Shown here piece by piece: positions 29,299-42,648 of a stretch of 64,000 nt of DNA. Both the position numbers and the translations under genes were made by a program. Under the pieces are notes generated by a model that was not told the origin of the DNA, did not search any database, and worked only from the letters and a program-made list of their open reading frames with translations. Origin of the DNA: Bacteroidia bacterium (GTDB lineage: Bacteria > Bacteroidota > Bacteroidia > Flavobacteriales > Schleiferiaceae); NCBI GenBank assembly GCA_030424545.1, contig JAUHWL010000004.1:62001-126000 (forward strand), given 5' to 3'. Positions within the stretch are counted from its first letter, which is position 1; the number at the start of each line of letters is the position of its first letter.

Positions 29299-31266
29299 AT
29301 GAAATACATTTTAGGGGTTTTCATGAGTGTAATATTATCAACGCTTGCCGTAAATGCTCAAGTAGAATTAGGCGAATGCGATGAACCTCAAGAAAAAAAT
29401 GAAAAGGCCGAAGCGCAAATTAATAAGGCGCTAAAAGCAATAAACACCAAAAATTTAAAAATGGCCAACATTTATGTGGCCAATGCACTGAAGTTTCAAG
29501 AAGACAATGTGCATGCATTTTATTTAGCGGGAGAAATTGCGTTGCGTGAAGGAGTACTGTTTAAAACAGAAGCCTCTTGGACAAAAGTGCTAGAAATTTG
29601 CCCGAACTATAAAGCCGATTTATACTTCTTTTTGGGTATTATTTATTTAGAAAATGGTAAGAGAGACTTGGCCGAAGAGTATTTAACATTGTTTTTAACC
29701 AAAGGTGATAGAGAGCGCGGTTACGACAAAGACGCTAAAGAAGCACTCAAAGAAATTAAACTAAAAAAAGACCAGTTTAGTAATCCTGTACCGTTTGACC
29801 CTCATCCCATATTGCAAATTTCTACACCTGCAGATGAGTATCTCGCCATTATTTCTCCCGATACGGAGCTTTGTTTTTTTACAAGAAGACAAATGAAAAA
29901 AGACAAATATGCTGGTCCGGCCGGAAGCACAAGAATGGTTGAAGAGTTTACCATGGCCACAAAAACGGGCAATGCATATTCTGTTGGCGATGCTTTGGAT
30001 TCTCCATTTAACGAGAGTTTTAATGAGGGTGGCGCATCCATAACGGCCAATAACAAAGAGCTGTTTTTTACCGTTTGCCAGGTTGATGCCAAAGGCTACC
30101 AAAATTGCGACATTTATTATTGCAAGAAAGAATATGGCTTTTGGGGTGACATTGTTCCGCTTGGCGCAAACATTAACAAACCAGAAAGTTGGGAAAGCCA
30201 ACCCAGTATTTCGGCAAACGGAGATGTTTTGGTTTTTACAAGCAACAGGCCAGGAGGACAAGGTGGTTTAGATTTATGGAAAACTAACCGTTTACCAAAT
30301 GGAGAATGGGAAGACCCTGAAAATCTTGGGCCTGTGATAAACACAAGAAAAAACGAAAAATCACCATTTCTTCACTCAGATAGCCAAACACTTTACTTTG
30401 CTAGCGATGGGCATCCAACCATTGGTGGTTACGATATTTATTTTAGCAAGTTTGATGATGATTCTAAAACGTGGGCCGAGCCTATAAATATTGGTTACCC
30501 CATAAACACAAAGGCCGATGAAATTGGGTTGTTTGTTAGCTTAGATGGCAAAATGGCCTATTTTAATAGCAACAATTTAAAAGGTAAAGGCGGTTGGGAT
30601 TTGTACAGCTTTGAGCTATACAAAGATGCACGTCCAGAGCGCGTTGCACTGCTTAAAGGCGCTTTGGTAGATGAGAATAACGAAGTGGTAAAAGATGCCA
30701 AGCTTGAAGTTAAAAACTTGAAAACAAAAGAAGTTACTCAAGTAGAAGTTGATCAAGAAACGGGGGAGTTTGCTACCGTTGTTAAATTAAAAGAAGAAGA
30801 AAACATCATCCTTAAAGTTGATAAAAAAGGAACAGCTTTTACTTCCAAATTTGTTGCGGCAGATGATGACAATGGCAACGGAGTAGTGGCTGCCGATTTA
30901 GAAGTAAGCCCCATAGAAGTGGGTAAAGAATATCGTTTAAATGATATTAGATTCGCATCAAACTCGGCCGAGTTGAATGAGCACGCCAAACAAATTATAG
31001 ATGAATTTGTGTTGTTTCTTTCTGATAATCCTACCGTTAAAGTAGATATACAGGGGCACACCGATGATATTGGTAATGATGATGACAATTTAACCTTGTC
31101 TAAAAATCGTGCTAAAGTGGTTTACGAATACATTGTTGCCACAGGTATTTCTTCTAGCCGTTTAACACATCATGGGTACGGAGAGCAAAAACCAATTTCA
31201 TCTAACAACACCGATGCGGGCAAGGCCAATAACAGAAGAACCGTTTTTGTAATTACCGCCAAATAA
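29299..31266 (+). CDS. OmpA-family protein with TPR and PD40 repeats
   Basis: This 655-residue exported protein has a signal peptide ending near AVNAQ, a short TPR-like region (about 30-155), WD40-like PD40 beta-propeller repeats (about 190-440, for example VFTSNRPGGQGGLDLWK and YFASDGHPTIGGYDIYFSK), a carboxypeptidase-like module (about 450-530) and a C-terminal OmpA domain (about 545-655) with VDIQGHTDDIGNDDDN and LSKNRAKVVYEY for peptidoglycan binding. Such proteins tether the outer membrane to the wall; close relatives include T9SS PorE-type proteins, but identity with PorE is not claimed. It is the last gene of the aroC operon, beginning directly after the AsmA-like stop. Confidence 0.9.
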   Translation: MKYILGVFMSVILSTLAVNAQVELGECDEPQEKNEKAEAQINKALKAINTKNLKMANIYVANALKFQEDNVHAFYLAGEIALREGVLFKTEASWTKVLEICPNYKADLYFFLGIIYLENGKRDLAEEYLTLFLTKGDRERGYDKDAKEALKEIKLKKDQFSNPVPFDPHPILQISTPADEYLAIISPDTELCFFTRRQMKKDKYAGPAGSTRMVEEFTMATKTGNAYSVGDALDSPFNESFNEGGASITANNKELFFTVCQVDAKGYQNCDIYYCKKEYGFWGDIVPLGANINKPESWESQPSISANGDVLVFTSNRPGGQGGLDLWKTNRLPNGEWEDPENLGPVINTRKNEKSPFLHSDSQTLYFASDGHPTIGGYDIYFSKFDDDSKTWAEPINIGYPINTKADEIGLFVSLDGKMAYFNSNNLKGKGGWDLYSFELYKDARPERVALLKGALVDENNEVVKDAKLEVKNLKTKEVTQVEVDQETGEFATVVKLKEEENIILKVDKKGTAFTSKFVAADDDNGNGVVAADLEVSPIEVGKEYRLNDIRFASNSAELNEHAKQIIDEFVLFLSDNPTVKVDIQGHTDDIGNDDDNLTLSKNRAKVVYEYIVATGISSSRLTHHGYGEQKPISSNNTDAGKANNRRTVFVITAK

Positions 31267-31693: not shown

Positions 31694-31775
31694 ACTAGTT
31701 AAAATTTTTAATTAATCACAAACCAACATTCACATCTTTTGCCAGAGGTTGATACGTGCTGCTTTTAAGCGGGTG

Positions 31776-32416: not shown

Positions 32417-34429
32417 ATGAAGTATCAATTGTTTTGGATTCCGTTAATTTTTCTTTCAATCTTATTTTTTGGCAACATAGCCAATGCAGAAAACACAAAA
32501 CGTGCATTAATAATTGCCGTTGGAGATTACGACAAAGCAGCAACCGGTTGGAGCCCTATTAGCTCTGCAAACGATGTTCCCCTTGTTAGAGATGCTTTGG
32601 TTAGCCAAGGATTTAAGGCCGATAACATTGCCGTTTTACAAGATGAAAAAGCTACCAAAAAAGCCGTAATAGAATATTTAAATACGTTGGTAAAAGAAAC
32701 GCAACCGGGCGATGTTGTGGTAATACATTACTCGGGCCATGGCCAACAAATTACCGACAACAACAACGATGAAGTTGATGGATATGACGAAGCTTTAATT
32801 CCGGTTGATGCCAAAGCGCGATTTACCAAAGGCGTGTACGAAGGCGAAAACCATATTAGAGATGACGAAATGGGCGAACTACTGAATAAGATTAGAAAGC
32901 GTGCTGGTACAAAAGGAAGCGTTTTGCTTATTATGGATTCGTGCCATTCGGGTACCTCCTCTAGAGGTTTGGCCAAAACACGTGGTACCCAAGAAACTTT
33001 TGATACTGCGCCTGCAAACCAGAGTGCAGCCAAAGAAGAAGGAACATTTGGACTAGAAACTAAAGATGACGAAAATCTGGCGCCTTTAATTTGTTTTTAC
33101 GGTGCAAGTGCACATGAGCTAAACTACGAAACCACCGATGCTAACGGCAATGGAGTAGGCTCTTTAAGTCTTGCTTTTAGTGATGCATTTGCCAATGCAA
33201 AACCCACGCAAACGTATAAAGAGTTGTTTGATCAGGTTAGAAACAAAATGGCCGTTTTGGCTCCAAAACAATCGCCACAAGCCGAAGGAGATTTAAACCT
33301 TGCCATTTTGGGGGGAGAAATTACAGGCAAAAAAATGTACTACAACGTAACCAATGTCTACAATAAAAAAAGTGTTGCCATTAATGGTGGTAACTTAATG
33401 GGGGTTTACGAAAATTCTGAAGTGGCATTTTATGCGCTAGGCGATGAAACAACCGAAGATAAAATTATAGCTACAGGAAAAGTAGTTTTTTCTGATGCAG
33501 TAACTGCCGACATTGAGTTAACAAATACAGCCGAAAATATTGATTTAAAAGCGTGTAAGGTTATTGTTACCAAAGAGAATTTTGGCAACATTGGTGTTAC
33601 AGTGCAACTCAATTTAAAAGAGCAAAAGTTAGAAGCTAAACTTAACGAGGAGTTTAAAAAGTACCCTTTAATTAAAGTGGTAGATAATGGTGGAGATTTA
33701 ATTTTAGAAGAAAACAATGAATTTACCCGTGGCGAAAAACTCTACTTAATTACCGCCTTAGAGTACGAATTATTTGCCAATTCTTATAGTGATGTAGATG
33801 TAACCGCAAAAGATATTACACGTAAAATACTTGCTTTTGCACAAGCAAAATATTTGCGACAAATAGAAATGTACAGCGAAGATTTTGATGTGAGATTTGA
33901 GTTTATTCCCGTAAGAACACAAAAAGTTGGTCGTGGTAGTGTAGAAGAAGTAGAGCGTTTTAGCATAGATACTAAACGCGATGCATCAGGTAATATTAGC
34001 TTTACCGCTGGCGACTATTTTAAAATAAAAATCATAAACGATGGTTACGAAGTGGCTTATTACAGTATTCTAGATTTTCAGCCTGATAACCAAATTGGCG
34101 TATTGATTCCCGGTAAAAACCAAAACGCAGCAGATTACGTAATTAAACCCGGAGAAGAAAAAGAATTGCCTCGCATCTACCAGTTTAATCCACCATACGG
34201 AACAGAAGTCTTTAAGCTTGTAGCAAGCAAAGAACCTATAGATTTCAGATCGATATTGTTAAACAAAGGTGCCCACAGAGGTACGAGCGACTCAAATAAT
34301 CCTTTTGCCACATTGGTATCTGCAAGTTTTAGAGTTGAAAACGCAAGCAGTAGAGGAACAGAAACGGTAAGCGTGGCACCTGGGAATTGCAATATTCAGT
34401 CAGTAACATTTTCAATTGTAGAAAAATAA
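32417..34429 (+). CDS. Exported caspase-family (C14) protease with C-terminal DUF4384-like domain
   Basis: This 670-residue protein has a signal peptide (IFLSILFFGNIANAE), so it should act outside the cytoplasm, unusual for a caspase-like enzyme. The C14 domain (about 28-290) begins RALIIAVGDYD and has the catalytic pair intact: VVIHYSGHGQQ with His108 and LIMDSCHSGTSSRG with Cys176. A middle region of unknown fold follows. The C-terminal part (about 500-640) resembles DUF4384: FTAGDYFKIKIINDG, YYSILDFQPDNQIGVLIPG and ELPRIYQFNPPYGTEVFKL. The next gene, a CHASE2 sensor, starts one base after the stop, and a third gene overlaps that by ATGA. Its substrate and trigger are unknown. Confidence 0.88.
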   Translation: MKYQLFWIPLIFLSILFFGNIANAENTKRALIIAVGDYDKAATGWSPISSANDVPLVRDALVSQGFKADNIAVLQDEKATKKAVIEYLNTLVKETQPGDVVVIHYSGHGQQITDNNNDEVDGYDEALIPVDAKARFTKGVYEGENHIRDDEMGELLNKIRKRAGTKGSVLLIMDSCHSGTSSRGLAKTRGTQETFDTAPANQSAAKEEGTFGLETKDDENLAPLICFYGASAHELNYETTDANGNGVGSLSLAFSDAFANAKPTQTYKELFDQVRNKMAVLAPKQSPQAEGDLNLAILGGEITGKKMYYNVTNVYNKKSVAINGGNLMGVYENSEVAFYALGDETTEDKIIATGKVVFSDAVTADIELTNTAENIDLKACKVIVTKENFGNIGVTVQLNLKEQKLEAKLNEEFKKYPLIKVVDNGGDLILEENNEFTRGEKLYLITALEYELFANSYSDVDVTAKDITRKILAFAQAKYLRQIEMYSEDFDVRFEFIPVRTQKVGRGSVEEVERFSIDTKRDASGNISFTAGDYFKIKIINDGYEVAYYSILDFQPDNQIGVLIPGKNQNAADYVIKPGEEKELPRIYQFNPPYGTEVFKLVASKEPIDFRSILLNKGAHRGTSDSNNPFATLVSASFRVENASSRGTETVSVAPGNCNIQSVTFSIVEK

Positions 34430-34430
34430 A

Positions 34431-35612
34431 ATGCTTAAAAAGTTAGCCATAGAATCTGCGCTGATAGTGCTGATTGTCATTCTGATTGCAAAGTTGGTGA
34501 GTTGGCTTCCTTTAAATTTAAGTGCGTTAAAACCATTAGAAAATTTGCTCAAGGGTTTTGACATGATGGATATATACTACTCGGTATTGCAGGATAAGGA
34601 AATGGCTTTTTGCAAAGACGTTGTTTTAATAAATATTGCTGATGCCAATAGAAGCGAAATTGCAGACCTGATTATGATATCCAGTTTTGGTAACCCAAAG
34701 GCCATTGGCGTAGATGTTTTGTTTGAAAAACGCAAGGATTCTTATACAGATTCTATTTTGGCCGATGTAATACGTGAAACTCCACAAGTAATTCTGGGAG
34801 CATTTTACCAAGATGGACTAGCAAGTTTAAAAACCAGTACAGATATTTTTAAAACTGCGTATGTTGGTTACACCAATTTTATTGGTACTGATGCACGGTA
34901 TTCTAATATTAGATATTTTAAACCTGTTTTAAATGTAGGCAATACAAGCTACAATTCATTTGCTGTTGCTTTGGCAAAAATGAGCAACACTGATGCTACC
35001 AACGAATTTTTAAACAGAAACAATGAAAACGAAATTATCAATTACATCGGCAATTACAATTCGTTTCTAAGTTTTGAAAAAGACGAAATATTAGAAGGCG
35101 AAGTAGATCCAGAATTGTTTCGAGATAAAGTAGTAATCATTGGTTTTTTAGGAAATACCATTGGAGATCAGCAAAACGTTGAAGATCGTTTTTTTACACC
35201 GTTAAACCCACAAATTAGTGGTAGATCAGTGCCAGATATGAACGGGATGGTATTACATGCCAATATTGTAAACATGATATTAAATAAAGATTGGATAAAC
35301 ACCACCGGAACTTTTTTAAAACAACTTATTGCTGGGGTAATCTTGTATTTACACATTTTGTTGTTCATGTTTTTAATCATCAAATGGAATCTCTATTTCG
35401 ATGCGCTTTCTATGGTTTTACAAATTATATCAACCCTGATTATTCTTCTTATTGTATATAATGTATATCACTATTTTAATTACAGAATTTATATTGCTAA
35501 CGCTTTGGTAGGAGTAGGTTTATCAGTAGAACTTCTTTTTGTGTACGAAGCTGTGGTACATACATTGTATAAAAAGTATAAAATCAAATCAGTACTAATT
35601 ACAGAGTCATGA
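34431..35612 (+). CDS. CHASE2-domain membrane sensor without an output domain
   Basis: This 393-residue protein has one N-terminal helix (ESALIVLIVILIAKLVSWL), an extracytoplasmic CHASE2 domain (about 40-280; FGNPKAIGVDVLFEKR and DPELFRDKVVIIGFLG) and three C-terminal membrane helices (about 290-370). CHASE2 is normally the input module of kinases, cyclases or Ser/Thr phosphatases, but this protein ends about 20 residues after the last helix. It must therefore signal through partners, most simply the caspase-like protein encoded one base upstream or the secreted protein encoded by the overlapping next gene. The role is inferred from domain and operon structure. Confidence 0.82.
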   Translation: MLKKLAIESALIVLIVILIAKLVSWLPLNLSALKPLENLLKGFDMMDIYYSVLQDKEMAFCKDVVLINIADANRSEIADLIMISSFGNPKAIGVDVLFEKRKDSYTDSILADVIRETPQVILGAFYQDGLASLKTSTDIFKTAYVGYTNFIGTDARYSNIRYFKPVLNVGNTSYNSFAVALAKMSNTDATNEFLNRNNENEIINYIGNYNSFLSFEKDEILEGEVDPELFRDKVVIIGFLGNTIGDQQNVEDRFFTPLNPQISGRSVPDMNGMVLHANIVNMILNKDWINTTGTFLKQLIAGVILYLHILLFMFLIIKWNLYFDALSMVLQIISTLIILLIVYNVYHYFNYRIYIANALVGVGLSVELLFVYEAVVHTLYKKYKIKSVLITES

Positions 35613-36397
35613 AAAATTTCCTTTTAACTATTTTCCTTTTTCTTTCTCAACTTCTTTTAGCCCAAGAGATTGGCGTTTATTATTTAGAAGGTACATGTAC
35701 CGCTAAAAAAGATGGCAAGACCATTTCATTAGCAAGAAATACCATTTTATCAAATGGTAGCCTAATTAATGTAGATGATGCATCTAAGATTATTTTGGTA
35801 AACGGAGAAAAAACAATAAGTATAAATACAAAAGGACAATACACTTTTGAAGATATATTATCAAAATTCAACTCATCTAAAAAGAATGTTTCTAACAAAT
35901 ACATACAGTATGTGTGGAATAAAATAAGAGAAAAAGAAGAAAGCAAAGACGATGAGGGCGATGGTAAAATGAATGTTTCAGGAATGGTAACAAGAGGAGA
36001 ACCAAGCGGTATTAAATTTCCAAAAGACTCTAGTATAATTATAAGCAGAACATTAAAGTTAACAATAGATAAAACCTTTGCTCCTGGCTTTTTATATATC
36101 TATAAAAAAAGTAGGTCATTATTGTTTATCCCAACAAAATCAGAAAATGTAACCCTTAATAAAGAAGAATTTAAAGAAATTAATGGTTGGTTTGGGATGG
36201 CTGTTTCTCTAAATCAAACGGCTCCAACAAACAATATTATCTATGCAAGGTGGGCCAATGACAGTGAAATAGAAACCGCCAATAACAAGTTACAAGAGTT
36301 ACTTATGGAATTATCTAACTACCCAAATACGGTGCAAGATGAGCTTATTGAAGCTTTTTTAGAATCAAACAATTATGTAAGCACTAGGGTAGATTAA
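35609..36397 (+). CDS. Secreted protein of unknown function in the caspase/CHASE2 operon
   Basis: This is a 262-residue protein with a signal peptide (LLTIFLFLSQLLLAQ). The following part has a FecR-like beta pattern: AKKDGKTISLARNTILSNG and SKIILVNGEKTISINTKGQY. A helical linker rich in Lys and Glu (about 95-120) leads to an unrecognised C-terminal domain containing GFLYIYKKSRSLLFIP, whose FLYIYKK strand is reminiscent of DUF4384-like folds, and a helical end. No catalytic motif is visible. Its ATG overlaps the CHASE2 stop (ATGA), so the three genes are translationally linked and it is likely a periplasmic partner of the other two. Confidence 0.65.
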   Translation: MKNFLLTIFLFLSQLLLAQEIGVYYLEGTCTAKKDGKTISLARNTILSNGSLINVDDASKIILVNGEKTISINTKGQYTFEDILSKFNSSKKNVSNKYIQYVWNKIREKEESKDDEGDGKMNVSGMVTRGEPSGIKFPKDSSIIISRTLKLTIDKTFAPGFLYIYKKSRSLLFIPTKSENVTLNKEEFKEINGWFGMAVSLNQTAPTNNIIYARWANDSEIETANNKLQELLMELSNYPNTVQDELIEAFLESNNYVSTRVD

Positions 36398-39336: not shown

Positions 39337-40494
39337 ATGAAAAGAATAAAATTATTTATAGCTGCAGCTTTTATTTTATCAAGTTTTATTGCAACTGCTG
39401 GAGGTAAAAAAATAGAAGTTAACGGAGAGAAAATTGTTGTAGAAGACGGTATTTACGGAAAGTTTGAAACAACTTTGGGCGATATATTAATTCAATTTAG
39501 TATTGATAAAGCGCCAATGACAGCGGCAAACTTTATACTACTTGCCGAAGGTAAAATGCCTGGTGCAGACGAAAAATATAAAGATGTGCCTTATTACAAC
39601 GGTTTAACGTTTCACCGTGTAATTCCTAATTTCATGATTCAAGGTGGAGACCCTGAAGGAAACGGACAAGGGGGCCCTGGTTATGAATTTCCGAACGAAA
39701 CGCATGAAGATTTAAGTCACAGCAAAGGAGTTATTTCTATGGCCAATGCTGGGCCAAATACCAATGGTAGCCAGTTTTTTATAACTGTAGCCGAAACAAA
39801 ACAATTAGATGGGTCTTACAGTGTTTTTGGTCATGTAATTGAAGGGCAAGATGTTGCAGATTCAATCTCCAACGTTGCCAGAAATAAAAGCGATAAACCT
39901 GAAGTACCTGTTGTAATGAATACGGTAACCATTGTACGTGTGGGTAAAGAGTTTAAGTCTTGGGATGCTGTAGCTGCATTTACTGCCGGTAAAGCGGCTT
40001 ATGAAGCAGAAGTAGCTATGCTTGAAGAAAAAAGAATTAAAGAGCAGCAAGAAGCGTTAGAGAAATCTAAACAAATGGTAGTAGAATTTAAGCAAAAATA
40101 CCCTGAGGCAAAAACTTCGCCAACTGGCTTAATGTATGTTATTGAAAGCATTGGTGAAGGTGAAAAACCTGCAAATGGTACGAATGTAAACGTGCATTAT
40201 GCGGGATATTTTGCCGATGGAAAACTGTTTGATACAAGCATTAAATCTTTGGCGCAAGAAACAGGAACGTACAATCCACAACGCGAACCATATAGCCCTA
40301 TGGCTATTCCTTACGGACCAGAAGCACAGCTTATTCCTGGGTTTAAAGAAGGGCTAGCGTTGTTAAACGTTGGTGGAAAGGCTAAGCTTATAATTCCTCC
40401 AAGTTTGGCATACGGTGAGCAAGGTGCTGGCGGTATTATTCCTCCACACGCTTGGTTAATTTTTGATATTGAATTAGTAGATATTGCCAAGTAA
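39337..40494 (+). CDS. Cyclophilin-FKBP fusion peptidyl-prolyl isomerase 1, exported
   Basis: This is a 385-residue dual immunophilin with a cleavable signal peptide (AAAFILSSFIATAGG). The cyclophilin domain (about 36-205) has LTFHRVIPNFMIQGGDPEG and NTNGSQFFITVAETKQLDG, with the catalytic Arg of FHRV present. A charged helical linker (about 215-260) joins it to an FKBP domain (about 265-385) with VNVHYAGYFADGKLFDTS, PGFKEGLALLNVGGKAKLII and PHAWLIFDIELV. It should assist folding in the periplasm. It starts five bases after the GldI-like gene, and a close paralogue follows. Confidence 0.93.
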   Translation: MKRIKLFIAAAFILSSFIATAGGKKIEVNGEKIVVEDGIYGKFETTLGDILIQFSIDKAPMTAANFILLAEGKMPGADEKYKDVPYYNGLTFHRVIPNFMIQGGDPEGNGQGGPGYEFPNETHEDLSHSKGVISMANAGPNTNGSQFFITVAETKQLDGSYSVFGHVIEGQDVADSISNVARNKSDKPEVPVVMNTVTIVRVGKEFKSWDAVAAFTAGKAAYEAEVAMLEEKRIKEQQEALEKSKQMVVEFKQKYPEAKTSPTGLMYVIESIGEGEKPANGTNVNVHYAGYFADGKLFDTSIKSLAQETGTYNPQREPYSPMAIPYGPEAQLIPGFKEGLALLNVGGKAKLIIPPSLAYGEQGAGGIIPPHAWLIFDIELVDIAK

Positions 40495-40524
40495 AGTCTA
40501 TTGGCAAGTAATTAATTAGACTTT
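40493..40524. repeat. 8-bp inverted repeat between the first two immunophilin genes
   Basis: AAAGTCTA (40493-40500) and TAGACTTT (40517-40524) can form a stem with a 16-base loop right after the first fusion gene. The T-run after it is weak, so it may protect the mRNA end rather than terminate. Confidence 0.35.
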
Positions 40525-40562
40525 AACAATTTATATATACACTTTAAAGTAAGAAAACAGGA

Positions 40563-41714
40563 ATGAAAAAAGTTGGATTATTGGCGGCCTTTGCCATAGC
40601 AATTGTAAGTTTTACATCATGCACCAAAAAGGTAGAAATTAATGGCGAAAAAGTTGAGTTAGAAGATGGCATCTATGCCAAGTTTCAAACGTCTATGGGA
40701 GATATTTTGGTAGAGTTAAATACCGAATTGGCACCAATGACAGCAGCAAACTTTATGCTTTTGGCAGACGGTTCTATGCCCGAAATAACAGATAGCTTAC
40801 AAGGAAAACCATATTTTGATGGATTGACATTTCACCGTGTAATTCCAGATTTTATGATTCAAGGTGGAGACCCTCAAGGTAACGGTATGGGTGGCCCAGG
40901 TTATCAATTTCCAAACGAAGTAAACCCTGAATTATCGCACGATAAAGGCGTAATTTCTATGGCTAATTCTGGTCCTCACACCAACGGAAGCCAGTTTTTT
41001 ATCACCGTTGCAGAAACCAAACAATTAGATGGTGGTTACAGCGTATTTGGTAAAGTTTTAGAAGGGCAAAGCGTTGCAGATTCTATTTCGATGGTAGAAA
41101 AAAACCAAGGCGATGCACCTGCAGTACCTGTTGTTATGGAAAAAGTTACCATTATTAAAGTGGGTAGCGATTACAATAACTGGGATGCTTTAGCTGCCTT
41201 TAACAGAGGTAAAGAAGATTTTGAAGCTGCACAAGCAGAAGAAATTGCAAGAAGAGCAGAAGCAGAAGAGCAAGCACGTGTACAAGCCGAAGCCCTTAGC
41301 ATTGAAATGTTAGAAAAATATCCTGATGCACAAACCTCTGCAACTGGTTTAATGTATGTTATAGAAACTGTTGGTAATGGTCCTAAACCTGCCAATGGCG
41401 ATAACGTAAACATTCACTACGCAGGTTATTTTGCCGATGGAATTATGTTTGACACAAGCATTAAAGAACTTGCCGAAGCAAACGGAATGTACAACCCACA
41501 GCGCGAGCCTTATTCTCCAATGCCTGTACCATACGGTCCAGAAGCTCAATTAATTCCTGGATTTAAAGAAGGCGTTTCTTTGCTAAACGTTGGCGGAAAA
41601 GCCAAGTTGATTATCCCCCCACATTTGGCTTATGGCGCACAAGGTGCTGGAGAAGTTATTCCTCCACACGCTTGGTTAATTTTTGATATAGAACTCGTAA
41701 ACATTGTTAAATAA
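40563..41714 (+). CDS. Cyclophilin-FKBP fusion peptidyl-prolyl isomerase 2, lipoprotein
   Basis: This 383-residue paralogue of the preceding gene is nearly colinear with it from residue 25 on, but has a lipoprotein signal (AIVSFTSC, lipid on Cys20), so it is tied to a membrane. The cyclophilin domain has LTFHRVIPDFMIQGGDPQG and NGSQFFITVAETKQLDGGY; the linker is Ala/Glu-rich (about 215-250); and the FKBP domain has VNIHYAGYFADGIMFDTS and PHAWLIFDIELVNI. The 68-base gap before it contains an inverted repeat, so it may be transcribed separately from its neighbour. The next fusion gene begins one base after its stop. Confidence 0.93.
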   Translation: MKKVGLLAAFAIAIVSFTSCTKKVEINGEKVELEDGIYAKFQTSMGDILVELNTELAPMTAANFMLLADGSMPEITDSLQGKPYFDGLTFHRVIPDFMIQGGDPQGNGMGGPGYQFPNEVNPELSHDKGVISMANSGPHTNGSQFFITVAETKQLDGGYSVFGKVLEGQSVADSISMVEKNQGDAPAVPVVMEKVTIIKVGSDYNNWDALAAFNRGKEDFEAAQAEEIARRAEAEEQARVQAEALSIEMLEKYPDAQTSATGLMYVIETVGNGPKPANGDNVNIHYAGYFADGIMFDTSIKELAEANGMYNPQREPYSPMPVPYGPEAQLIPGFKEGVSLLNVGGKAKLIIPPHLAYGAQGAGEVIPPHAWLIFDIELVNIVK

Positions 41715-41715
41715 G

Positions 41716-42648
41716 ATGAAAGACGGTTTATACGCAAAATTTGTTACCTCTAAAGGTGACATACTAGTAAACTTAGAATTTGAAAAAACCCCGATGACAG
41801 TGGGAAACTTTGTTGGCCTAGCTGAGGGAAAATTTGAAAACACCGCTTCTGATAAAGGCGTACCTTATTATGATGGCCTTAAATTTCATAGAGTTATAGA
41901 AAATTTTATGATTCAAGGTGGATGTCCAGACGGAAGAGGAACGGGCGGTCCGGGTTACCAGTTTGCCGATGAATTTGATAAAACTTTACGCCACAGTGGC
42001 CCTGGAGTTTTATCTATGGCAAATGCAGGCCCTGGAACCAACGGAAGCCAGTTTTTTATTACACATACAGCAACAGATTGGTTAGATGATAAGCACACTG
42101 TTTTTGGTAATGTTATAGAAGGACAAGACGTTGTAGATAAAATTGCACAAGACGATAAAATTGAAAAATTAGAAATTTTACGTGTTGGTGCCGCTGCAGA
42201 AGGTTTCGATCCAAAAAATGCTTTTGATGCAGGTATGGAAGAGCAGCGTAAAGCAGCCGAAGAAGCAGCTAAAGCTCAAGAAGAAAAAATTGCTTCGATG
42301 ACTAAGAATGCTACAAAAACCAATTCTGGTTTGATGTACGAAATCTTAGAAAAAGGCAACGGACCAAAGCCAACCAAAGGACAACAAGTAAGCGTACATT
42401 ACGCTGGCTTTTTGCTAGATGGCCTTAAGTTCGATTCTTCTTTTGACCGTAACGATCCAATTACCATTGCTATTGGTACCGGACAAGTAATTCGCGGTTG
42501 GGACGAAGGCATAATGTTGTTGAATGAAGGCAGCAAAGCAAGATTTATTATTCCTTCTAATTTAGGTTATGGCCCTCAAGGCGCAGGTGGTATTATCCCT
42601 CCTAATGCAACCTTAATTTTTGAAGTTCAATTGGTGAAGGTTCACTAA
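41716..42648 (+). CDS. Cyclophilin-FKBP fusion peptidyl-prolyl isomerase 3, cytoplasmic
   Basis: This is a 310-residue third member of the tandem array, without any signal peptide, so it should be cytoplasmic. The cyclophilin domain (about 5-160) has LKFHRVIENFMIQGGCPDG, with Cys in place of the Asp seen in the other two copies, and GTNGSQFFITHTATDWLDD, closer to stand-alone cyclophilins. The FKBP domain (about 215-310) has VSVHYAGFLLDGLKFDSSF and IRGWDEGIMLLNEGSKARF. The start is the ATG one base after the preceding stop; an earlier TTG overlapping that gene is unlikely. A terminator follows. Confidence 0.93.
   Translation: MKDGLYAKFVTSKGDILVNLEFEKTPMTVGNFVGLAEGKFENTASDKGVPYYDGLKFHRVIENFMIQGGCPDGRGTGGPGYQFADEFDKTLRHSGPGVLSMANAGPGTNGSQFFITHTATDWLDDKHTVFGNVIEGQDVVDKIAQDDKIEKLEILRVGAAAEGFDPKNAFDAGMEEQRKAAEEAAKAQEEKIASMTKNATKTNSGLMYEILEKGNGPKPTKGQQVSVHYAGFLLDGLKFDSSFDRNDPITIAIGTGQVIRGWDEGIMLLNEGSKARFIIPSNLGYGPQGAGGIIPPNATLIFEVQLVKVH

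Follow-up and report, generated by a model that had tools for sequence, protein, structure and literature searches.

The window analysed here, a stretch of 64,000 nucleotides from a Bacteroidia bacterium of the family Schleiferiaceae (assembly GCA_030424545.1, contig JAUHWL010000004.1, positions 62,001 to 126,000 of the forward strand), carries three plus-strand open reading frames that follow closely on each other. Gene 1 (32417–34429, 670 residues) encodes a putatively exported C14 protease of the caspase/orthocaspase type, gene 2 (34431–35612, 393 residues) a solo CHASE2 receptor, that is, one with no output domain, and gene 3 (35609–36397, 262 residues) a putatively exported MtxA/FecR-like partner. 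The trio is a real, conserved arrangement, characterised at the level of sequence by its architecture, the lack of an output domain, a conserved pairing of receptor and partner, a clustering of proteases around them, a retained catalytic dyad and gene fusions. What would a receptor with nothing to say to the cytoplasm be doing beside an exported protease? The reading that we tentatively favour is that the solo CHASE2 protein and its MtxA/FecR-like partner are an envelope receptor pair gating an exported cysteine protease, where contact, gating, signal and substrates are what we infer. CHASE2 together with an exported partner is already known; what sets this case apart is that the receptor lacks an output and that exported cysteine proteases cluster around it.

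Genes 1 and 2 are separated by one base and genes 2 and 3 share the four bases ATGA (35609–35612), as the initial annotation, made from the letters alone, had stated. The genome of the window (3,375,244 bases) has a single CHASE2 match and a single C14 match and the two are adjacent to each other, so the neighbourhood is more than chance. Genes 1 and 3 start with a signal-peptide-like hydrophobic stretch, as judged from hydropathy only and not from a signal-peptide predictor. Promoter and terminator scans gave matches no more frequent than in shuffled sequence, and no response regulator is evident by eye among the open reading frames flanking the trio. When the trio was run through PADLOC, the only family found was a generic caspase model for gene 1, with none for genes 2 and 3.

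The middle gene matches CHASE2 (PF05226) with an E value of 1.7e-24 and 87.2 bits against a cut-off of 26.3, and no further Pfam family appears at E up to 1, nor does a kinase, cyclase or GGDEF output. Hydropathy, an alignment of 65 relatives and a single-chain AlphaFold2 model (mean predicted local distance difference test score, pLDDT, 88) were considered together. Hydropathy and model give one N-terminal membrane helix (2–25 in the model), an extracytoplasmic domain of alpha/beta type and three membrane helices (294–318, 320–349 and 356–383). The chain stops at residue 393, about 10 residues beyond the last of these, which bears out the earlier description of a CHASE2 protein ending right after its membrane helices. 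Such short tails are usual among the relatives described below: over 99 CHASE2 proteins from the census, the median number of residues beyond the last hydrophobic stretch is 18. In a fold comparison of the model with the PDB no match fell below E 0.1; a likeness to subtilisins (best VIA Z 4.7, root-mean-square deviation (rmsd) 4.6, 118 residues aligned) is too weak and was set aside. CHASE2 proteins are patchily distributed in the order of the window, with a match in 5 of 296 genomes.

Gene 1 is a C14 caspase-like protease with His and Cys in place, and its proteolytic activity is predicted. Peptidase_C14 (PF00656) covers residues 28–290 at E 5.9e-26, and the region around His108 (within SGHG) and Cys176 (within DSCHSG) can be aligned with solved metacaspase-1 structures in the PDB. 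DUF4384 (PF14326) follows at residues 529–607 (E 8.5e-7, 29.4 bits against a cut-off of 27). The intact pair, the signal-peptide-like start and the DUF4384-like C-terminus of the initial annotation are thus all confirmed. Against a model of the EACC1-type caspases, the one EACC type compared, the protein scores 39.5 bits, where the threshold of the model is 140.

The third protein was said to resemble no family, a statement that has to be corrected. It has no Pfam match above cut-off and no FecR (PF04773) match at E up to 1, and FecR is absent among the 25 Pfam families listed for 16 members of the alignment of third proteins, so it was not retained as a member of Pfam FecR. Its AlphaFold2 model (single chain, mean pLDDT 88) shows an N-terminal beta domain at about residues 20–80, a helical hairpin, an immunoglobulin-like (Ig-like) domain at about 132–216 and a shortened TPR-like tail of one helical pair. 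Foldseek against the PDB places the C-terminal domain of MtxA (4z29) at ranks 1 and 3 (E 3.5e-3 and 1.0e-2, probability 1.00), with a cell-surface anchoring domain (5ix9) at rank 2; FecR structures are absent from the fold matches listed. VIA-align superposes 5ix9 on residues 17–92 of the model (Z 8.6, rmsd 3.3, 74 aligned) and 4z29 on residues 132–262 (Z 6.6, rmsd 3.9, 117 aligned). The C-terminal Ig-like and TPR fold, as modelled, is MtxA-like, with moderate scores and a short TPR tail, and a profile of the third family weakly matches MtxA residues 25–73 (E 0.018). Queried with the single sequence of gene 3, the 296 genomes of the order gave a match in that of the window and in no other. The reason is the divergence of the family, whose members are 11–23% identical to gene 3 in the family alignment; the family came to light through the neighbourhoods of other solo CHASE2 genes. 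Where, then, does the N-terminal domain belong? A model of it built without the signal peptide matches 14 proteins in 14 of 40 control loci, chosen around CHASE2 genes in long open frames and nearly all confirmed as cyclases (E 2.1e-6 to 1.8e-3), all of them one or two genes from CHASE2, and four of the five scanned carry Pfam FecR. On this sequence evidence the domain appears distantly related to the FecR-type proteins beside CHASE2 cyclases. Fold and neighbourhood put the protein with MtxA and the FecR-type partners, and the idea of a novel family was rejected. The MtxA fold and this kinship in the control loci suggest that gene 3 encodes the form which a known kind of exported partner takes beside a solo CHASE2, though it stays below the level of Pfam FecR.

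To what extent is the trio found elsewhere? The census began with 103 loci (the window, L066, L069–L089 and 80 of the 405 relatives found with the CHASE2 alignment, taken as those most similar to the CHASE2 of the window and so not a random sample), and removal of seven duplicates left 96 distinct loci with 1.62 Mb of DNA, some on short contigs. Outside it stand L067, which carries CHASE2 in a long open frame, L068, L090 and L091, these four having no match with the seeds, and L092, with a weak CHASE2 match and no third gene or C14. Genes were called with a simple longest-frame script, which called CHASE2 in 92 loci and missed it in 4 of the 96. The control loci come from other genera, so that their taxonomy is not matched to that of the census, and each was chosen for a CHASE2 gene in a long open frame. 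Confirmation as CHASE2-cyclase loci was obtained for 38 of the 40, L200 and L213 not being marked by the CHASE2 model. All p values assume independent loci, an assumption that does not hold among related species.

The most constant feature is the pair. The third gene lies within the locus DNA in 79 of 96 loci, as a same-strand neighbour of CHASE2 in 70 and immediately downstream in 69. Some of the 17 loci without it end at contig ends (L083, L099, L126, L128), and six (L093–L097 and L099) make up one clade of solo CHASE2 proteins with no C14 that, at 31–35% identity, are among the closest to that of the window; the solo CHASE2 gene of L097 is adjoined by a TPR-CHAT protein. A C14 gene is present in the locus DNA of 35 of the 96, in a same-strand run in 25 and as a same-strand direct neighbour or fused in 14. 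The initial annotation took the third protein for an adaptor or substrate; since 79 of the 96 loci have it and only 35 the protease, 'conserved partner of the receptor' describes it better than 'substrate'. C14, CHASE2 and third gene succeed each other in this order in nine of 96 loci (the window, L087, L100, L117, L119, L123, L131, L136 and L141), in rows labelled Bacteroidales, Marinilabiliaceae, Chitinophagales and Ignavibacteriales, among others. Conservation beyond close relatives, which a neighbourhood survey had been proposed to check, is thereby seen across several orders, and the notion of a recent local oddity was rejected, as the profiles find the CHASE2/third pair in many Bacteroidota and Ignavibacteria.

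The protease is clustered around this pair. Counted by gene distance from CHASE2 or the third gene, C14 makes up 18 of 189, 12 of 175, 16 of 155, 5 of 140 and 2 of 127 genes at distances 1 to 5 and 1 of 410 at distance 6 or more; the difference between distance 3 or less (46/519) and 6 or more (1/410) has a p value of 2e-11. It is found in 34 of the 79 loci with a third gene against 1 of the 17 without (p 0.004), and in 35 of 96 census loci against 2 of 40 controls of unmatched taxonomy (p 9e-5). The C14 model gave 56 matches in the census DNA and also picks up CHAT proteins: of 21 matches checked with Pfam, 20 were C14 and one (L103|11) CHAT only. For comparison, Pfam C14 has 139 matches, about 0.8 per Mb, in 38 genomes that were hand-picked, many because C14 had already been seen, and of which G454 and G657 look identical; G654, the 8.5 Mb genome of L129 (a locus titled Lewinella sp.), has 24. 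Seven genomes have exactly one C14 match, which lies within range of the CHASE2 locus in five (that of the window, G531, G649, G660 and G664) and not in G653 and G658. In a quick tree of 92 solo CHASE2 proteins (LG+G4, support from the Shimodaira–Hasegawa-like approximate likelihood-ratio test only) the presence of C14 requires at least 13 changes, which are not sortable into gains and losses, so that the association is not one event. With weak local support, the tree places the window in a 29-row set containing all seven loci labelled C14-DUF4384, the window included.

These proteases look like intact, exported enzymes. His and Cys are aligned in 55 of the 56 C14-model matches, the exception being a fragment of 120 residues, and by hydropathy 53 of 61, duplicates included, have an export-like hydrophobic N-terminus; start codons may be misplaced in the other eight. 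The catalytic pair and export signal, on which the initial annotation had staked its proposal, therefore hold up in this context. Their architectures vary. C14 is joined to DUF4384 above cut-off in the window and L100 and below it in L131, L103 and L122, to TPR (L069, L087|4, L131|2, L132), to WD40 (L080, L100|14, L119), to Ig-type repeats (L070, L075) and to CsgG plus Ig (L123, L136); CHAT (L097) and trypsin-PDZ proteins (L122, L131) also stand within the runs. Nine loci, eight of them distinct, have a papain-like protease, predicted to be exported, in which the stretches that we take to hold papain's Gln, Cys, His and Asn are conserved in all nine rows; in the genomes of L066 and L152 it is near the pair and there is no C14 match. 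DUF4384 recurs in the papain-like proteins, above cut-off in the L066 copy and below it in the L070 copy. Since two unrelated exported cysteine proteases at this locus carry it, the sequences suggest a docking role for DUF4384. Fusions tie the parts together further. In L055, CHASE2 and the third protein share one open frame of 749 residues from the first ATG with a hydrophobic segment between them, a layout that fits a cytoplasmic CHASE2 tail and a partner predicted to be periplasmic, and in L074 (the same as L110) and L140 the N-terminal domain of the third protein, C14 and an outer-membrane barrel (above cut-off in L074, below it in L140) form one protein.

How could these parts work together? 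The solo CHASE2 protein and the MtxA/FecR-like protein would form a receptor pair in the envelope, as elsewhere beside a cytoplasmic cyclase or kinase. What the pair would bind and gate is an exported cysteine protease, of the caspase type in the window and of the papain type in some relatives; the gated enzyme would act in the periplasm or at the outer membrane. Known CHASE2 proteins relay a signal from outside to a cyclase or kinase; receptor and partner might likewise restrain or license a protease kept at the membrane. CHASE2 can act as a restraint, since Sinorhizobium CyaD1 without it is reported to make cyclic AMP constitutively (PMC5498481), and because the receptor has nothing cytoplasmic and accompanies exported proteases, restraint of the protease would be the simplest use. 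A broader claim would be that CHASE2 in Bacteroidota has lost its cytoplasmic output and, with its partner, switches exported caspase- and papain-like proteases directly, turning an external signal into envelope proteolysis with no second messenger or transcription; this is conceivable and, on balance, doubtful.

Several observations weigh against a pair that gates a protease. There is no C14 in the locus DNA of 61 of the 96 loci (some contigs being short), and a 20-row clade, mostly Cytophagales, has the pair and no C14 within five genes. The pair occurs with no C14 match at all in 8 of the 38 genomes, including that of Marivirga arenosa (L159, G669, complete by its title). Two of these eight have a papain-like protease; in five of the other six some genes adjacent to the pair were scanned, and at L159, L165, L166 and L076 no protease was seen. 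The neighbours there are MeaB, a Crp-type regulator, an outer-membrane barrel and DUF4846 at the first three loci, with nothing recognised at L076, and at L077, likewise in a genome without C14, SPFH and NfeD proteins stand beside the pair and an M16 peptidase lies on the opposite strand. L130, L137, L154 and L162 show C14 on the opposite strand only, the CHASE2–third fusion of L055 is a single case from a draft genome, and deletion of mtxA is reported to give no phenotype under the conditions tested (PMC4439547). Pairs with no protease nearby must mean that the pair does something else too or acts on a protease encoded elsewhere. Of the proposal that receptor and protease are a unit, the conserved association stands, whereas an obligatory protease does not, given the 61 loci and eight genomes without C14.

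Could the pair instead signal in trans through a protein encoded elsewhere, or be structural, with proteases that are clients under common regulation, or just frequent in its neighbourhood, and not its output? In favour of this, the pair recurs in many more loci than the protease, the mostly Cytophagales clade and the eight genomes do without C14, and the other CHASE2 proteins, those confirmed in the control loci and those described in PMC5192318 and PMC9239204, carry a cytoplasmic kinase or cyclase. Against this, the clustering of C14 is tight, fades over a span of five genes and is far less marked where CHASE2 is joined to a cyclase; fusions of third protein and C14 exist, and papain-like proteases replace C14. 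Moreover, once a mixed cluster that holds third, C14 and TPR proteins is set aside, no cluster of neighbours spans more than nine loci, so that no common trans partner is found beside the pair. We consider this alternative unlikely, while giving it real weight. A unit for envelope processing or quality control, whose protease would mature or trim exported or outer-membrane proteins with the pair as anchor and scaffold and not as sensor, would account for the barrels fused to the third N-domain and C14 in L074 and L140, for OmpA proteins that stand within the L080 and L119 runs and have cluster mates in L124 and L127, and for a type IX secretion-tailed protein adjoining C14 in L070. It seems improbable to us, because CHASE2 elsewhere is a receptor-type domain, the varied protease architectures (WD40, TPR, Ig, CsgG) suit varied inputs or targets over one housekeeping substrate, and the distribution is as patchy as the five genomes of the order indicate.

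The initial annotation went further and suggested stress sensing or self-destruction; neither is supported and nothing among the results shows either. A self-destruct or defence unit, in which a signal of attack or damage would let the exported protease degrade the envelope and kill the cell, might be expected to draw on the kind of enzymes seen here: caspase- and trypsin-type proteases are described as interchangeable effectors in bacterial conflict systems (PMC7159879, PMC8195603), and C14, papain-like, CHAT and trypsin-PDZ proteins are all present in the runs. Set against this are the PADLOC result for the trio, which reaches no further than gene 1 (no search for defence genes was made in the runs), and the conservation in L131 of the same downstream genes as in the window (rpsF, rpsR and rplI, see below), unlike a mobile island. 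The conflict systems of these two papers, moreover, reportedly do their work mostly in the cytoplasm or at the cytoplasmic membrane, and we regard this explanation as very improbable. The gated protease thus remains the reading that we prefer, with the tentativeness stated at the outset.

Other features of the window and of the census loci deserve mention. Downstream of the trio are genes that we take to be rpsF, rpsR and rplI, and upstream, on the opposite strand, genes presumed to be ndk and rplS, all names being given from the protein sequences. Relatives of the three ribosomal genes lie 3' of the trio in L131, with one extra gene between, and in no other census locus. An L19-Flavobacteria ribosomal leader (Rfam RF03130, 40.8 bits, 31724–31751, minus strand) is located 5' of the presumed rplS and indicates a flavobacterium. 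Further upstream, with two opposite-strand genes between it and the trio, a TPR-PD40-OmpA protein (29299–31266, plus strand; Pfam OmpA 1.6e-22, PD40 8.1e-22) is similar to L127|7 and L119|3, and OmpA-type proteins of this sort adjoin CHASE2 runs in L080, L119, L124 and L127. As such proteins are common in Bacteroidota, their association with the trio may be chance. At 39337–42648 (plus strand) three similar genes stand in succession, each of them presumably, from its sequence, a fusion of cyclophilin-type and FKBP-type prolyl isomerases. Among the small exported neighbours in the census, one family of 133–167 residues (cluster 10) lies in runs with C14 (L117:7273–7773, L122:14217–14618, L126:9527–9925, L131:5382–5852, L153:561–962) and is a possible inhibitor or substrate. 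The two members scanned (L117, L131) have no Pfam family at E 0.01. The small exported neighbours of clusters 6, 10 and 15 together were considered as candidate protease inhibitors, and the four of them that were scanned likewise have no Pfam family at that level. In L073, L077, L078, L108 and L144 a small NfeD-type gene comes after the third gene, with an SPFH/Band 7 gene too except in L144 (clusters 4 and 7, both identified in the L077 copies only).

Why would such a pair matter? Discussion of caspase relatives in bacteria has largely treated them as enzymes of death or defence in the cytoplasm. Widespread, dyad-bearing caspase relatives that are predicted to be exported and are tied to one receptor pair would give these enzymes a candidate regulator and a place, and the pair gives CHASE2 proteins without output a function to look for. 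It also puts the puzzling MtxA beside a large family, and genomes with one C14 and one pair, like that of the window, make the question directly approachable.

How does the trio compare with known systems? In the open-licence literature on CHASE2 and bacterial caspases, in the parts available to us, no description of a solo CHASE2 with an exported caspase was found. The structure of MtxA (PDB 4z29) consists of an Ig-like and a TPR domain, and its paper, which reports almost no known relatives, describes mtxA followed by a CHASE2-cyclase gene in magnetotactic bacteria (PMC4439547). This is, as in the trio, an exported Ig-like and TPR-like protein beside a CHASE2 gene; in contrast to the trio, CHASE2 carries a cyclase, mtxA comes first and no protease is mentioned in the relevant parts of that paper, while the window copy has a shortened TPR tail. 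The BiofilmReg operon of Burkholderia likewise joins an exported FecR-type protein, here FecR-LysM, to a CHASE2 receptor in one operon, but the receptor is a histidine kinase with a response regulator and the account of the operon mentions no protease (PMC5192318); gene 2 has no kinase of this type and gene 3 does not reach Pfam FecR. In Campylobacterota a CHASE2 adenylate cyclase clusters with FecR and TPR proteins, again CHASE2 with a FecR-type exported partner and a layout similar to that of 14 of the 40 control loci, whereas the output is an intracellular cyclase and the cluster as described has no protease (PMC9239204). A link between CHASE2 and caspase-type proteases is also on record, in the CHASE2-metacaspase fusion of Trichodesmium (PMC2853523, PMC3501461) and in EACC2-caspase proteins (PMC8195603). 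There both are in one polypeptide, with the caspase of Trichodesmium predicted on the cytoplasmic side; in the trio the caspase is separate and predicted to be exported, and a third protein is constant. Finally, the survey of prokaryotic metacaspases by Asplund-Samuelsson et al. (PMC3501461) describes operons with OmpA proteins, as in some loci here, and multi-metacaspase operons in Bacteroidetes, the sections on these operons naming neither CHASE2 nor a FecR/MtxA partner.

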